Assembly: GCA_020054675.1 (NCBI GenBank)
Contig: JAIHAL010000001.1
Span: forward strand, 248,001 to 312,000
DNA: 64,000 nucleotides
Origin: Oscillospiraceae bacterium
GTDB taxonomy: Bacteria; Bacillota; Clostridia; Oscillospirales; Ruminococcaceae
Reading direction: 5' to 3'
Shown: piece by piece, positions 2,068-63,061 of the stretch
Position numbering within the stretch: the stretch's first letter is position 1
How the letters are laid out: the number at the start of each line of letters is the position of its first letter
Made by a program: the position numbers and the translations under genes
The notes under the pieces: generated by a model
The model's input: only the letters and a program-made list of their open reading frames with translations
The model's database searches: none
Told to the model about the DNA's origin: nothing

Positions 2068-3111
2068 TTATTTAACTATCAGTTTTGCCACATCATTGAA
2101 GGTTACTGCAACCATAAGCAAAATTAAAAGAGCAAGCCCTGCAAAATGGATTATTGCCTCAACCTCCGGCTTAATCTTTTTTCTTATTACCGCTTCAATA
2201 AGGCGGCAGAAAATTCTTCCTCCGTCAAGAGCAGGCAAAGGCAGAAGATTAAATATCCCGACGTTTATTGTTATAAAAGCTCCAAGGCTAAGCAGTGAAC
2301 GAATTTTATCAATAAGAGAAACCTGAACACTTATAGTACTCCCTATGGCGCTTACAATCCCAACAGGCCCGGTGAGGTCATTAAATCCGTACTTCCCTCT
2401 AATAAGGTCAATTAAGGAAATCCATATAAGTCTTGCATACGATGCATAGCTTTTAAAGGAATGTTCAATTACAGAGATTGGGGTTTTCTTGACTGAATAA
2501 ACTTTAAAATCAAAAACAATTTGCTGCTTTGAGCTATCAGTTGCAGGCTTAAGTTCAAATTTTACATTATCAAGATTTACTTTTTTCCCATCGCGTTCAA
2601 CCTGCATGCTTACAATTCCGTCTGTATCGGTAGTCAGAACATACATTATATCATTTGCATCAAAAATTCTCATGCCGTTTATTTTCAAGATATTGTCATC
2701 AACCTTTAAGCCGCTTTGCTGACTGGATGCATTATCGCTGAAAGTTGCTATTTTTGTTGAAATAAGCCTTTCACTCATTGACGTAAGCAAAATTACAAGC
2801 AAAAGTCCCAGAAGCAAGTTCATGAACGCACCAGCAACAAGCACCGCTATTCTTTGCGGTATAGGCTTGTTGCCAAAAGCGCGTTCGTCACTGCTGTCAC
2901 CATCCTCACCTTCCATAGCGCAAAAACCTCCTATGGGAAAAAGACGGAGCGAATAAAGAGTTTCACCCTTTTGCCTTTTAAATATGGCAGGCCCCATTCC
3001 GATTGAAAACTCATTCACTTTAATGCCGCATTTTTTTGCGACAATAAAATGTCCAAATTCATGAACCGCAATAATTATTCCAAAAACAATTACAGCTATA
3101 ATAATATTCAT
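2068..3111 (-). CDS. rseP: Site-2 intramembrane zinc metalloprotease RseP/RasP
   Basis: M50 protease that cuts membrane-bound substrates such as anti-sigma factors and signal peptide remnants. Of 347 residues, the first membrane segment carries the zinc motif HEFGH (residues 17-21). A PDZ domain lies at roughly residues 115-200. The third zinc ligand sits in LPALDGGRIF near residue 300, and a last membrane helix ends the protein. Strong AAAGGAG ribosome site. Located between dxr and ispG, the standard place for this gene in Bacillota. It is one of three M50 proteases in the window; the others are at 40364 and 62373 and belong to different subfamilies. Confidence 0.95.
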   Translation of the reverse strand: MNIIIAVIVFGIIIAVHEFGHFIVAKKCGIKVNEFSIGMGPAIFKRQKGETLYSLRLFPIGGFCAMEGEDGDSSDERAFGNKPIPQRIAVLVAGAFMNLLLGLLLVILLTSMSERLISTKIATFSDNASSQQSGLKVDDNILKINGMRIFDANDIMYVLTTDTDGIVSMQVERDGKKVNLDNVKFELKPATDSSKQQIVFDFKVYSVKKTPISVIEHSFKSYASYARLIWISLIDLIRGKYGFNDLTGPVGIVSAIGSTISVQVSLIDKIRSLLSLGAFITINVGIFNLLPLPALDGGRIFCRLIEAVIRKKIKPEVEAIIHFAGLALLILLMVAVTFNDVAKLIVK

Positions 3112-37813: not shown

Positions 37814-38467
37814 TTAGAAAAATTTTTTCCCATCAAGGCAAAGAATATCCGTACGGCAAATAAAAATATCATCAATTTCTGATTTTATAAAATTTTGAAA
37901 AGCTTCAAGCATGGAATTGACATTTAAATTCTCCTGTGTTCCGGCGGGAAGTTTTAATTTAATTACGGCTTGTCCATCTTTGGATACCATTTCTAAAACT
38001 TCTATTTGAGGCTTTATATCAATCTGAACAGGAATTTTTTTCTTGTTAACCTTTTGGATTTCAATTTTTTCTTGTTCCATAAACTCATTAAACAAAAGAA
38101 TGATGTTACTGTTCCTGTCAAAAAATTTTATTTCATAAACCGCTGCGGCAATTTCGGTATGCTTTTTAACAGGAGCATCCACGCTTAAAATTTTAATGCC
38201 GTCCGGCAATGTTTTATTCAGCCTGTCCTTTATTTCATCGCAGCTAATATCATCTACAAGGGTAAAATCCATAATTTCACATATGCTGCCAATGCCAAGC
38301 GAAAGCGGCAGCGGAAACATCAAATATGCGCGCGGATTAAATCCCTGCGAATACCAAAGCGGCAATCCTGCCCTCTTAAAAGCCCTTTGCATGCATCTTA
38401 ACAAATCAAGGTGGGAGATAAACCTTGCTCTGCCAAGTTTTTCAAATACAGCCCTTACATCATTCAA
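37814..38467 (-). CDS. TIGR03936/DUF2344 family protein
   Basis: Partner of the radical-SAM protein encoded just upstream; function unknown but linked to ribosome or tRNA metabolism by gene neighbourhood in other genomes. About 217 residues; RARFISHLDLLRCMQRAFKR and LWYSQGFNPRAYLMF are the family hallmarks. Start uncertain: in-frame TTG 38482, GTG 38476 and TTG 38467 are all available. I list TTG 38467, which overlaps the upstream stop by eight bases. In Actinobacteria and some Clostridia the two proteins are fused. Confidence 0.85.
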   Translation of the reverse strand: MNDVRAVFEKLGRARFISHLDLLRCMQRAFKRAGLPLWYSQGFNPRAYLMFPLPLSLGIGSICEIMDFTLVDDISCDEIKDRLNKTLPDGIKILSVDAPVKKHTEIAAAVYEIKFFDRNSNIILLFNEFMEQEKIEIQKVNKKKIPVQIDIKPQIEVLEMVSKDGQAVIKLKLPAGTQENLNVNSMLEAFQNFIKSEIDDIFICRTDILCLDGKKFF

Positions 38468-40295
38468 AGCAAGCACCGCCAATCGCTTTATTTATTCCGC
38501 ATCCCGAACATGAAATCCTGCAGTTTGGCGTTGCAATTCCCTCATGAGCCTTTTTATTTTCCCTGATAAGAAATTCTTTTGAAACAAAATAGTCAAGATG
38601 GTCCCACGGCTGAATTTCCTCATAACTCCGCTTTCTGTTTGCATAAAAGCTAATGTCTATGCCAAGCTCTTCAAAAACCTTTTTCCATTTTAAAAAATCA
38701 TAGCATTCATCCCAACTGTCAAAAACACATCCGCTTTTCCAAGCATGGTACAAAGCATCGCAAAGTCTTCTGTCGCCCCTTGCAAGAACCGCTTCAAGAA
38801 TGCTTATATCGGTTTTGTGCCAGCTAAGGGAAACAGTTTTGGGGTTTGTTTTAGAAATCAAAAGGCTTTGTTTTCTTTTAATTTCCTCCGGCAATGCCTG
38901 AGGTTCAAACTGAAAAGGTGTAAACGGCTTTGGAACAAACGTCGCCGCGCTTATTGAAATTGAAAGTCTGCCCTTAGGACGGTGCGGAAGAGAATAAAAA
39001 AGCTTCTCTATTTTTTCGGCGAGAACGGCTATTCCTTCCACATCTTCATCGGTTTCAGTTGGAAGTCCAAGCATAAAATAAAGCTTTACGCTTGAATACC
39101 CTCCCTCAAATGCTGTTTTGCACGCTGAGAGTATTTCTTCTTCCGTTATATTTTTATTTATAACATCCCTTAGCCTTTGCGTGCCTGCTTCCGGTGCAAA
39201 AGTAAGCCCGCTCTTTCTTACAGATTTTATTTTTTCAAGAAGTTCCTTTGAAAAATTATCAATCCTTGTTGAAGGCAACGAGAGATTTATCTTTTCTTTT
39301 TCTGTATAATCAACCAGTTCGTTAAGCATAAGGTTTATTTGTGAATAATCGCTTGTGCTTAATGACGAAAGCGAAACTTCCTCATAGCCCGTGGATTCGC
39401 AAAGGGATTTTGTTTCATTTACAATCGTGCCTATTGATTTTTCTCTAAAAGGCCTGTAAATAAAGCCTGCTTGACAAAATCTGCATCCTCTTATGCATCC
39501 CCTTAAAACTTCTACAACCGCCCTGTCATGCACAGTTTCAGTAAATGGAACCACAAATGTTTCAGGATAAAAAACATTGTCAAAATCCTTTATTATTCTC
39601 TTTTTGACCTTTTCCGGAGCGCCATTTTTAGGGACAACAGATTTTATCGTTCCATCGTGATTATAGCTGACATCATAAAAAGCAGGGATATAAATCCCCT
39701 CAATTTTTACGGCTTCTTTTAAAAATTCTTCCTTGGAAGCGCCATCTTTTTTCATTTTTGCATATAAATCCAAAAGCTCAAGGTTTACCTCTTCTCCCTC
39801 GCCAAGAATAAAAATATCAACAAAATCGGTGAGAGGTTCCGGATTGCAGGTGCAAGGGCCTCCGGCAACCACAATAGGGCTTAAATTTTTCCTGTCTTTT
39901 GAATAAACCGGCACTCCCGCCAAATCAAGCATATTAAGGACATTAGTATAAGAAAGCTCATACTGCAATGTAAAGCCTATAAAGTCAAAATCCTTTATAG
40001 GTTCAAGGCTTTCCAGACCATAAAGCGGAATATCATTTTCACGCATTATTTTTTCATAATCTATCCAAGGAGAAAAAACACGTTCACACCAAAAGTTTTC
40101 ACGGCTGTTTGTCAAAGAATAAAGAATTTTCATTCCAAGATGGGACATTCCTATATCATACACATCCGGAAAACAAAAGGCGAACCTTACATCAATCTTA
40201 CTTTTGTCCTTTACAATGCTCCCTATCTCACCGCCTATATACCTTGATGGCTTTTGTACTTTTAAAATATGTCTTTCTATTTTTTCTCTAAGCAT
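38460..40295 (-). CDS. TIGR03960 family B12-binding-domain radical SAM protein
   Basis: A 611-residue radical SAM protein. N-terminal B12-binding-like region (residues about 35-180, including FCFPDVYDIGMSHLGMKILY and VVAGGPCTCNPEPLTDF). The SAM cluster motif CxxxCxxC is in VLRGCIRGCRFCQAGF. A C-terminal extension ends with a cysteine-bearing RISCSGCGINKAIGG. The reaction is not established. It belongs to the clostridial block spoIVFA-spoIVFB-TIGR03960-TIGR03936, usually followed by rng and rplU-ysxB-rpmA-obg; those followers are absent here. Confidence 0.88.
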   Translation of the reverse strand: MLREKIERHILKVQKPSRYIGGEIGSIVKDKSKIDVRFAFCFPDVYDIGMSHLGMKILYSLTNSRENFWCERVFSPWIDYEKIMRENDIPLYGLESLEPIKDFDFIGFTLQYELSYTNVLNMLDLAGVPVYSKDRKNLSPIVVAGGPCTCNPEPLTDFVDIFILGEGEEVNLELLDLYAKMKKDGASKEEFLKEAVKIEGIYIPAFYDVSYNHDGTIKSVVPKNGAPEKVKKRIIKDFDNVFYPETFVVPFTETVHDRAVVEVLRGCIRGCRFCQAGFIYRPFREKSIGTIVNETKSLCESTGYEEVSLSSLSTSDYSQINLMLNELVDYTEKEKINLSLPSTRIDNFSKELLEKIKSVRKSGLTFAPEAGTQRLRDVINKNITEEEILSACKTAFEGGYSSVKLYFMLGLPTETDEDVEGIAVLAEKIEKLFYSLPHRPKGRLSISISAATFVPKPFTPFQFEPQALPEEIKRKQSLLISKTNPKTVSLSWHKTDISILEAVLARGDRRLCDALYHAWKSGCVFDSWDECYDFLKWKKVFEELGIDISFYANRKRSYEEIQPWDHLDYFVSKEFLIRENKKAHEGIATPNCRISCSGCGINKAIGGACFE

Positions 40296-40363: not shown

Positions 40364-40954
40364 TTACGCAAAAATTTCACATACTAAAAAATATAAAACC
40401 GTTAAATACAATGTTATATTCCCAGACTTATTGATTATAAAAAAACAAAAAAATATTCCAATTAAAAATACACATAAAATTTTTAAAATCATTGCAGCCT
40501 TGCTTGCATTTTGAATAGATAAAAAATTCCCGAAAATTAAATCTAAAATCCTGCCGCCGTCAAAAGCTTTAAAAGGCAAAAGATTAAAAATCCCAACCGT
40601 TAAATTCATAAAAGCAAAAATTAAAATGTCATTATTTTTAAAAGAAAGTAAAAAGGCAACAGAAAACGCAATAAAATTAGCTAAAGGCCCACCAAGTAAA
40701 ATTAAAATATCTTTAAAAAAAGGCATGATTTTATGCGCTGGAACAATTTTTATCCCGGCGCCATAAAAAGATATTTTTTCCAACTTTCCGCCTGCAAGAT
40801 TCATCAAAATTAAATGTCCTATTTCGTGAAGCATGCAAGCATAAAATCCTAAAATGATATATTTTGTATCCTTTAAAAGCATAAGCAAAGCAAGTGTTGC
40901 AAAAAAACTGAAATCAAAAGAAATTTTTATTCCAAATGCCTTAAATTCTATCAT
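40364..40954 (-). CDS. SpoIVFB-like M50 intramembrane metalloprotease
   Basis: A 196-residue, very hydrophobic zinc protease with about six membrane segments. The zinc motif HEIGH is at residues 43-47 and the third ligand in FKAFDGGRILD near residue 132. Length and topology fit SpoIVFB, the sporulation protease that activates pro-SigK. The small membrane protein upstream and the radical-SAM genes downstream match the spoIVF locus of Clostridia. It lacks the C-terminal CBS domain found in some SpoIVFB. Substrate assignment is inferred; no sigK is in the window. Confidence 0.8.
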   Translation of the reverse strand: MIEFKAFGIKISFDFSFFATLALLMLLKDTKYIILGFYACMLHEIGHLILMNLAGGKLEKISFYGAGIKIVPAHKIMPFFKDILILLGGPLANFIAFSVAFLLSFKNNDILIFAFMNLTVGIFNLLPFKAFDGGRILDLIFGNFLSIQNASKAAMILKILCVFLIGIFFCFFIINKSGNITLYLTVLYFLVCEIFA

Positions 40955-41252
40955 TTGGCGTTGAATTTAAAAAATCGGATATTTTTTGTGCAATTGTCAT
41001 CAGCGTGCCGTTCATATCATTTTGAACCGTGATTTGATTTTTATACGCTTTGCTTATTTCATTTAAAACCTCAGGAAACAATATTTTTGAAATTACAAAT
41101 AAAATTGAAACTATAAGACAAATTATGCATTGCATTGTTATTATATCGCTTGTCTTTACATTGAAGCCAACCCTTTTTTCCTTTATCAGTTCTATTGCGG
41201 CCTCTTCCTCGGTTATTCCTTCTTTTTCAAAAATTTCATTTTCTGATTCCAT
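40941..41252 (-). CDS. Small single-pass membrane protein, SpoIVFA-like without LytM domain
   Basis: A 103-residue protein overlapping the start of the SpoIVFB-like gene by 14 bases. An acidic cytosolic N-terminus (MESENEIFEKEGITEEEA) is followed by KTSDIITMQCIICLIVS, a single membrane helix (residues about 40-58), and a 45-residue outside tail. SpoIVFA proteins have the same layout but end in a LytM/M23-like domain of about 100 residues, which is absent here with no frameshift remnant. ATG 41252 has GAGGGG eight bases upstream. Assignment rests on position and topology rather than sequence identity. Confidence 0.6.
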   Translation of the reverse strand: MESENEIFEKEGITEEEAAIELIKEKRVGFNVKTSDIITMQCIICLIVSILFVISKILFPEVLNEISKAYKNQITVQNDMNGTLMTIAQKISDFLNSTPNDRI

Positions 41253-41315
41253 TGCCATCACCCCTCGTTTTAATTTTATTTGCGTTAACAAGGTTTTATT
41301 ACTTCCGGCACAAAA

Positions 41316-41345
41316 AAGGCGGCCATTTTTTCAAATGACCACCTT
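41316..41345 (-). terminator. Intrinsic terminator after spoVM
   Basis: 13-bp stem (41316-41328 with 41333-41345). Two C-A oppositions on the plus strand become G-U pairs in minus-strand RNA, so it serves the minus strand; TTTTTTG follows there. It closes the long yicC-to-spoVM run. Confidence 0.85.
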
Positions 41346-41353
41346 ATGTATTT

Positions 41354-41443
41354 TTAATTTTCAACCTTTTCCTTTTTAATCTTAAATATAAGCCTTAAAA
41401 ATCCCGATAAAAATTTTGGACTCTTTATAACGACAATTTTCAT
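41354..41443 (-). CDS. spoVM: Stage V sporulation protein SpoVM
   Basis: A 29-residue amphipathic peptide that marks the convex forespore membrane and anchors SpoIVA to start coat assembly. It reads MKIVVIKSPKFLSGFLRLIF and then IKKEKVEN-type charged residues. It aligns end to end with B. subtilis SpoVM (MKFYTIKLPKFLGGIVRAML), including Pro9. GGAGG is eight bases before the ATG. It lies just downstream of thiN and before a terminator; in B. subtilis spoVM is also next to thiN. It is too short for usual gene callers, but length, sequence and locus all agree. Confidence 0.93.
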   Translation of the reverse strand: MKIVVIKSPKFLSGFLRLIFKIKKEKVEN

Positions 41444-62372: not shown

Positions 62373-63029
62373 TCACCTCATTATTATGTCAACAAATCCG
62401 GTAAGAAAATCAAGTCCTATAATAATCAGGGAACGCAAAAATCCAAGCAGAGGATTAAGTATGCCGGAAAACATTATGAATATAAGCGCTATAAAAATAT
62501 ACTGCTCATACTGCATTATACGGAAATAAATTCTATCCGGAAGTACCGCATTTAATACCTTTGAACCGTCAAGCGGCGGTACCGGCAAAAGATTGAAAAC
62601 CGCAAGCCCGACATTAAGCAAAATAATATAATAAAACATATAAGAAGCATAGTATAAAATACCACTTTGACTTGCCGGGAGATATGATAAAAATTTGTAT
62701 ATTATCATTGCCAAAAATCCGAGCAAAACATTTGAAAAAGGCCCTGCAATTGATGTCAGCACCGTCCCAAGTTTCCTGTTGCGGAAATTGTTTGGGTTTA
62801 TTCCTACCGGCCTTGCCCAGCCAAATCCGGTAAGCAGCATGCAAATCGTACCAAAAAGGTCAAGATGGACAAAAGGATTCAAAGATATCCTGCCCTGATA
62901 CCTTGCGGTCGGATCGCCAAGTTTATCTGCGGCCCATGCATGTGCACATTCATGTACAGGAATAGCAGTGAAAAGCACAAGGGCCCTCATTAAAATTTTA
63001 AAAATATTATCAAAAGTAAATATTCCCAT
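62373..63029 (-). CDS. M50B site-2 protease family membrane protein (YwhC-like)
   Basis: A 218-residue multi-pass protein with zinc motif HECAHAW (residues about 27-33) and LPVPPLDGSKVLN as third ligand. ARYQGRISLNPFVHLDLFGT and GWARPVGINPNNF are typical of the compact M50B group (YwhC/YydH-like). Substrates are unknown. The ATG at 63029 is preferred over one two codons earlier since GAGG is seven bases away. It leads the scpA-scpB-DUF2953-gerW-dac-rluB run, driven by the promoter at 63062-63090. Confidence 0.88.
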   Translation of the reverse strand: MGIFTFDNIFKILMRALVLFTAIPVHECAHAWAADKLGDPTARYQGRISLNPFVHLDLFGTICMLLTGFGWARPVGINPNNFRNRKLGTVLTSIAGPFSNVLLGFLAMIIYKFLSYLPASQSGILYYASYMFYYIILLNVGLAVFNLLPVPPLDGSKVLNAVLPDRIYFRIMQYEQYIFIALIFIMFSGILNPLLGFLRSLIIIGLDFLTGFVDIIMR

Positions 63030-63061
63030 CAACATACCTCGCCAAAAATATTATATTTTTA

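Follow-up and report, generated by a model that had tools for sequence, protein, structure and literature searches.

A putative SpoIVFA homologue without its LytM domain beside a SpoIVFB-like protease in Clostridia

What becomes of the sigma-K checkpoint when the partner of its protease has no LytM domain? The SpoIVFA protein of Bacillus subtilis has 264 residues; at the equivalent place in the 64-kb stretch of clostridial DNA analysed here (the window), a gene encodes a product of 103 residues, P0001. An earlier note on this DNA had described P0001 as a SpoIVFA-like protein made of an acidic cytosolic part, a single membrane helix and a tail, with no LytM/M23 domain and no frameshift to account for its absence, and had proposed a different inhibitor logic for SigK activation.

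The gene order on which that note relied — small membrane protein, M50 protease, TIGR03960, TIGR03936 — held up in family searches, as did the overlap of the partner gene with the protease start, the P0001 stop falling inside the M50 gene (Table 1). Read along the minus strand, the locus begins with a gene that we take to be thiN-like, followed by spoVM, a hairpin, the 103-residue gene, the M50 gene and the two radical SAM-related genes. The P0001 gene starts with ATG, 8 bases downstream of a GAGGGG run, and the hairpin folds at -20.1 kcal/mol over 71 nt (z -3.58; none of 200 shuffles was equally low). No ribosome-binding sequence is visible ahead of the M50 start; together with the overlap, this suggests that the two genes are translationally coupled. 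SigE and SigG are also encoded within the window, where a SpoIIGA match lies below its cut-off.

Table 1. Features of the locus, in window coordinates
Feature	Position	Strand	Basis
LytM-less SpoIVFA homologue (putative) P0001, 103 aa	40941..41252	-	ORF and translation; profile match; hhalign
Predicted membrane helix of P0001, residues 37-55	41088..41144	-	hydropathy; AlphaFold helix 34-58
P0001 tail, 48 residues	40944..41087	-	AlphaFold model and alignments
SpoIVFB-like M50 site-2 protease P0002, 196 aa, without CBS domain	40364..40954	-	Pfam, PDB, Foldseek, alignment
Overlap of P0001 and P0002 genes, 14 bases	40941..40954	-	ORF coordinates
spoVM, next upstream gene	41354..41443	-	NCBIfam SpoVM_broad E 8.4e-14, 26-position model
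Terminator-like hairpin and T run, between spoVM and spoIVFA homologue	41311..41345	-	folding and shuffles
TIGR03960 B12-binding radical SAM protein, tree marker	38460..40295	-	NCBIfam E 1.7e-300
TIGR03936 radical-SAM-associated protein	37814..38482	-	NCBIfam E 2.4e-54

The described build of P0001 agreed with the open reading frame, the hydropathy and the AlphaFold model (block pLDDT up to 98, 74.8 for the whole model, pTM 0.38; P0001 and P0002 were modelled as single chains). An acidic N-terminal part precedes the one hydrophobic helix, and the tail is predicted to form two further helices (residues 60-79 and 81-97; block pLDDT mostly 65-84) before ending in FLNSTP, where near relatives are similar in the alignments. 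The absence of the LytM domain was likewise upheld: no M23 match appears for P0001 among the Pfam and NCBIfam matches listed at E up to 10, none for its 12 short relatives in alignment A2, and no Pfam or NCBIfam family matches P0001 above its curated cut-off. A LytM domain concealed by a frameshift after P0001 was ruled out, because the M50 gene begins before the P0001 gene ends and leaves no room for one. Nor is the LytM-less state a local break: among 79 classified genomes, 29 have a gene without LytM here, and in 5 others it is shorter still. In position P0001 corresponds to SpoIVFA, lying upstream of and overlapping the gene of an M50 protease whose best PDB match is SpoIVFB, and it has the homologous helix and juxtamembrane segment, the link to Bacilli being one Paenibacillus protein. 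Because the C-terminal LytM/M23-like domain is missing, we call it, from sequence comparison, a LytM-less SpoIVFA homologue and not a full SpoIVFA member.

A profile of the helix region, built from 33 LytM-bearing proteins at the same locus and searched against 5,254 six-frame ORFs, matched P0001 at E 2.5e-5; all matches under E 0.012 carry a LytM domain or adjoin an M50 gene. P0001 was also matched by profiles built only from the 12 LytM proteins of other families (E 8.9e-5) or only from the 21 of its own family (E 1.6e-4). None of 1000 shuffles of P0001 reached its score, whether the N-terminal part, helix and tail were each shuffled or the tail only. Across 17 short forms, region-wise shuffles never reached the score in 14 (0/1000 each) and did so 1, 14 and 17 times per 1000 in G022, G020 and G016, three forms that do not stand clearly above this control; tail-only shuffles equalled the score in 7 of the 17, P0001 not among them. 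A single hhalign comparison of the short with the LytM families returned 97% (E 8.3e-11).

Toward the Bacilli, the helix profile matched SpoIVFA of Paenibacillus cellulosilyticus (from the spoIVFA-spoIVFB pair L322) over the helix and juxtamembrane part at E 2.6e-5, with none of 2000 shuffles as good, and an M50 profile matched the SpoIVFB of the same species at 1.7e-38. Against a B. subtilis SpoIVFA sequence the helix profile gave no match (2.4 bits, E 42), and a profile of the short forms matched neither the Paenibacillus nor the B. subtilis protein; the connection to Bacilli therefore depends on the LytM forms together with a single Paenibacillus protein. A full-length profile gave 5e-13 for Paenibacillus SpoIVFA and 9e-8 for the B. 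subtilis sequence, yet it scores other M23 proteins equally high and so is no proof of homology, only the helix profile being specific. By these comparisons P0001 is a SpoIVFA homologue reduced to a membrane helix with its cytosolic part and tail, with the end of the linker and the LytM domain apparently lost. This bears out the SpoIVFA-like character proposed earlier. The note had named two findings that would speak against it: a profile-based assignment to an unrelated family, where the profiles in fact group P0001 with SpoIVFA, and a full-length SpoIVFA elsewhere in the genome. A LytM-bearing SpoIVFA elsewhere in the window's genome (G000; 2.28 Mb, 90% complete) was rejected, the helix profile matching none of its four M23 proteins, which by eye are SpoIIQ-like, secreted lectin-like, LysM-like and coiled-coil EnvC-like.

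We then surveyed the same position across related genomes. Searching with the P0001 protein sequence gave matches in 5 of 61 genomes, its own included; P0001 being too divergent for such a search, the M50 gene and TIGR03960 served as anchors. The gene upstream of M50 was read in 55 of the 61 genomes of the window's family and order. A scan of genome contigs with P0002 as query found no relative; with TIGR03960, 80 named loci were taken, the best of 588, and 28 of them have an M50 gene. Three of these 28, copies or cut, were dropped and 25 used; the other 52 of the 80 lack M50 in the stretch fetched, some stretches being incomplete. Left out before counting were G001, G010, G018, G024, G040 and G050 (no usable M50 locus), G056 (a doubtful 68-aa ORF), L197 and L246 (copies of G006 and G034) and L233 (cut upstream); G049 was classed by eye as a LytM instead of a short form. 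The 79 classified genomes comprise 34 LytM forms, 29 short forms, 5 minimal forms and 11 without a partner. Minimal forms (L222, L223, L237, L231, L238) end about 20 residues past the membrane helix, and their BofA is weak (2/5) or not detected.

On a 72-row tree of TIGR03960 (classified genomes absent from it: G004, G016, G017, G027, G028, G035, G047 and G049), the window falls in a 29-row clade (support 100/97) that holds no LytM form: 15 rows are short, 5 minimal and 9 without a partner, and the next row outside, G011, has LytM. The tree shows 9 changes in LytM presence, the starred branches forcing at least five changes of LytM group, and 6 changes in presence of the partner gene. The LytM loss is thus, on this tree, old in the window's clade, and the LytM-less state recurs elsewhere in the order.

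Such a pattern could mark a SpoIVFA on its way out, with the short gene controlling nothing and SpoIVFB either unregulated or held by BofA alone. The minimal and partner-less rows of the same clade and the six changes in partner presence speak for it, as does Ruminococcus bicirculans, which has M50, SpoIVB and pro-SigK but no partner gene and no BofA match. We nevertheless think it unlikely: the helix is conserved across genera and the tail end in near relatives, most short forms preserve the gene overlap, judging by intergenic gaps, and BofA searches gave a match for 21 of the 29 short-form genomes. Selection also weighs against decay, as one close pair gave dN 0.08 and dS 0.32 (a ratio of about 0.25); in three further pairs dS was saturated and pN was below pS.

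The remaining pathway genes were sought in the same genomes. G000 encodes SpoIVB with S55 and PDZ domains, a BofA (C2:72601-72807; PF07441 43.3 bits, above cut-off; TIGR02862 26.5 bits, below the cut-off of 53.35) and SigK (C1:201319-201990), which scores 280.1 bits to TIGR02846 from model position 3, below the cut-off of 298.65, as does B. subtilis SigK. The SigK N-terminus, MFSELINMALSNLLYFALHIEGNGVFPKPLS, is a clear hydrophobic pro-sequence, so that all three of the genes the earlier note had asked after are present. Such a pro-sequence was seen by eye in 23 of 29 short-form genomes; in the other six it was not read or only SigE was found. In G006 (C8:46190-56014), G011 (C16:36571-45368) and G014 (C2:514804-524463), sigK lies in two pieces 8-9 kb apart, resembling the B. 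subtilis skin element. SpoIVB occurs in 27 of 29 short-form genomes and, with and without a partner gene, in 57 of 61 genomes of one set and 26 of 29 of another; since 10 of 11 partner-less genomes have it, its presence says nothing about cleavage of the short-form tail. G000 has one S41 protease only, encoded beside the coiled-coil M23 gene; given this neighbour, a dedicated CtpB is not evident there, and the S41 protease may have a housekeeping role.

Of the 68 genomes that have a partner in whatever form, 51 gave a BofA match (LytM 28/34, short 21/29, minimal 2/5), as did none of the 11 without one (Fisher 2e-6, counting genomes regardless of kinship). In six independent pairs, partner and BofA changed the same way in 3.6 on average, in opposite ways in 0 and not at all in 2.4 (median p 0.125), and LytM state showed no link with BofA in independent pairs, on a tree with some rows in the wrong frame. 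BofA went undetected by Pfam search in 8 of 29 short-form and 6 of 34 LytM genomes, absences that are weak evidence because the search missed B. subtilis BofA in its control. Eight loci — L214 (R. bicirculans), L175, L202, L206, L208, L219, L226 and L227 — have M50 with neither partner nor detected BofA; seven of them have a SpoIVB match, and a SigK pro-sequence was read in five, one with a stop inside the match.

P0002 itself has the M50 fold, HExxH and DG zinc motif of a SpoIVFB: it matches Pfam M50 (E 1.1e-11), its best PDB sequence match is SpoIVFB (8vjl, E 1.8e-9), and Foldseek with its model (pLDDT 90.7) returns the site-2 protease of M. jannaschii (3b4r) and then 8vjl. All 25 aligned proteins share H43, E44 and H47 of HExxH as well as D132, the DG-motif aspartate. 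The C-terminal CBS domain expected of a SpoIVFB is found in none of the 25 proteins of alignment A3 (P0002 and 24 relatives), among them two proteases whose SpoIVFA partner has LytM; P. cellulosilyticus SpoIVFB gives a sub-threshold CBS match. In B. subtilis this domain contacts pro-SigK. Two other M50 genes lie separately in the window, at 2068-3111 (weak PDZ matches; RseP type by eye) and 62373-63035, and a genome search found three in all, P0002 included.

An M50 protease without the domain that touches pro-SigK might instead belong, with its membrane cofactor, to another pathway and cut another substrate. The 52 of the best 80 loci lacking M50 in their fetched, partly incomplete stretches would fit such a role, and many relatives in the group are not known as spore formers. 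We find this distinctly unlikely, however, in view of the SpoIVFB match of P0002, of spoVM immediately upstream, of spoIIGA, sigE and sigG in the window, and of the pro-SigK; moreover G018, which lacks matches to SpoIVB, SigK (at 1e-20) and BofA, also lacks a P0002 match. In L182 (R. flavefaciens) and L215 (R. albus) a SigK pro-sequence was read and no M50 gene lies in the stretch beside TIGR03960, and other loci of L170-L249 are likewise without M50 in the stretch fetched there.

That P0001 is an unrelated small membrane protein placed by chance at the spoIVFA position, as its 12-32% identity to 12 short relatives, the lack of a family above cut-off and the available part of Galperin 2012 (PMC3533761) might suggest, is most improbable in the face of the profile matches, shuffle controls and hhalign. 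The same portion of that paper describes clostridial proteins at the spoIVFA position as having N-terminal parts apparently unrelated to SpoIVFA and terms the clostridial LytM protein a non-orthologous displacement. Our helix-profile data, which tie the helix region of that LytM protein to Paenibacillus SpoIVFA, on balance argue against this view, through one Bacilli sequence.

We therefore return to P0001 as a SpoIVFA homologue that lacks the linker end and the LytM domain and would still do the core inhibitor job with BofA, a reading we hold to be probable. The accessible text of PMC3808539 places the helix of B. subtilis SpoIVFA at residues 73-90 and LytM at 160-255, with the linker between, and maps the cuts of SpoIVB (104, 116, 146, 154) and CtpB (131) all to the linker; the earlier statement that SpoIVB cleaves the LytM domain does not agree with these sites. 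It further has CtpB acting once LytM is shed, with residues 131-154 taken as the inhibiting piece, and with the consulted sections of PMC12632252 it locates inhibition in helix and linker, beside BofA and the SpoIVFB gate. The 48-residue tail behind the P0001 helix would correspond roughly to B. subtilis 91-138; given similar spacing, three of the five mapped cuts would fall within it. Since the tail roughly equals the initial stretch of the linker in length, the inhibitor core is probably kept; since it could carry SpoIVB sites, the proposed different inhibitor logic was too strong for the inhibition step, while release and anchoring remain the likely differences.

In the mechanism we propose, P0001 would sit in the mother-cell membrane and, with BofA, hold the SpoIVFB-like protease inactive; the P0001 helix and short tail would press BofA onto the protease. 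A protease secreted from the forespore (SpoIVB and/or a tail-specific S41 protease) would trim the tail, upon which SpoIVFB would cut pro-SigK and late mother-cell genes would start. In B. subtilis the LytM cap shields the linker from CtpB; without it, strict two-step trimming would no longer be needed, and the order of the proteases should differ. Anchoring should differ too: PMC6242693, in the part available, describes SpoIIQ-SpoIIIAH as the anchor of SpoIVFA and SpoIVFA as that of SpoIVFB, and, on the assumption that LytM is the part attached to SpoIIQ-SpoIIIAH, the complex would be anchored more weakly or by other means.

One observation on BofA bears on this. The column of B. subtilis BofA N48, a residue crucial for inhibition (PMC9042235, as available), holds His in 12 of 21 short-form genomes (L122, which is G000, L115, L133, L289, L292, L293, L296, L297, L299, L343, L345 and L346) and in none of the 28 LytM-form genomes, whose most frequent residue in this column is Asn (15/28); two minimal forms have Glu. 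All 11 His carriers on the tree belong to the window's clade and may therefore reflect one event; G020 of that clade has Asn. Given this 12/21 against 0/28, inhibition could have been strengthened on the BofA side: the checkpoint of this clade would be membrane-only, with SpoIVFA encoded already shed, the SpoIVB-then-CtpB order gone, and the BofA His perhaps acting within the membrane as a ligand of the SpoIVFB catalytic zinc, as the switch residue of a metalloprotease prodomain may do. We regard this version as distinctly improbable; the available text of PMC9042235 favours a simple steric block by BofA, without a zinc ligand.

Among known systems, P0001 shares with the SpoIVFA of Bacilli its place upstream of and overlapping spoIVFB and the single membrane helix, and with Paenibacillus SpoIVFA a related helix and juxtamembrane segment; those proteins differ in having LytM, and the Paenibacillus one in its length (353 against 103 residues). 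The clostridial LytM protein has the same place, helix and following helix and differs in the LytM domain. Similar in form is 4FAproc, the SpoIVB-processed SpoIVFA of B. subtilis described in the seen part of PMC3808539, which likewise keeps helix and linker stub without LytM; it is a transient cleavage product, whereas P0001, if our reading is right, is encoded directly in that state. We found no description of a LytM-less SpoIVFA in the literature searched, a scope that took in few subscription papers.

What controls SpoIVFB in those Clostridia that are described as lacking SpoIVFA is a question of the field (PMC12632252 and PMC9042235, in the parts available). In the group sampled here the spoIVFA gene is present in many genomes, as the LytM or the short form; no SpoIVFA-named Pfam or NCBIfam model matches P0001 or Paenibacillus SpoIVFA, so annotation would miss the short form. 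LytM form, short form, minimal form and none, each beside related proteases, amount to a natural deletion series of an inhibitor, which makes it testable which part of SpoIVFA inhibits, which anchors, and what SpoIVB must cut. Loss of the outer domain may change how the spore signals the mother cell to proceed.
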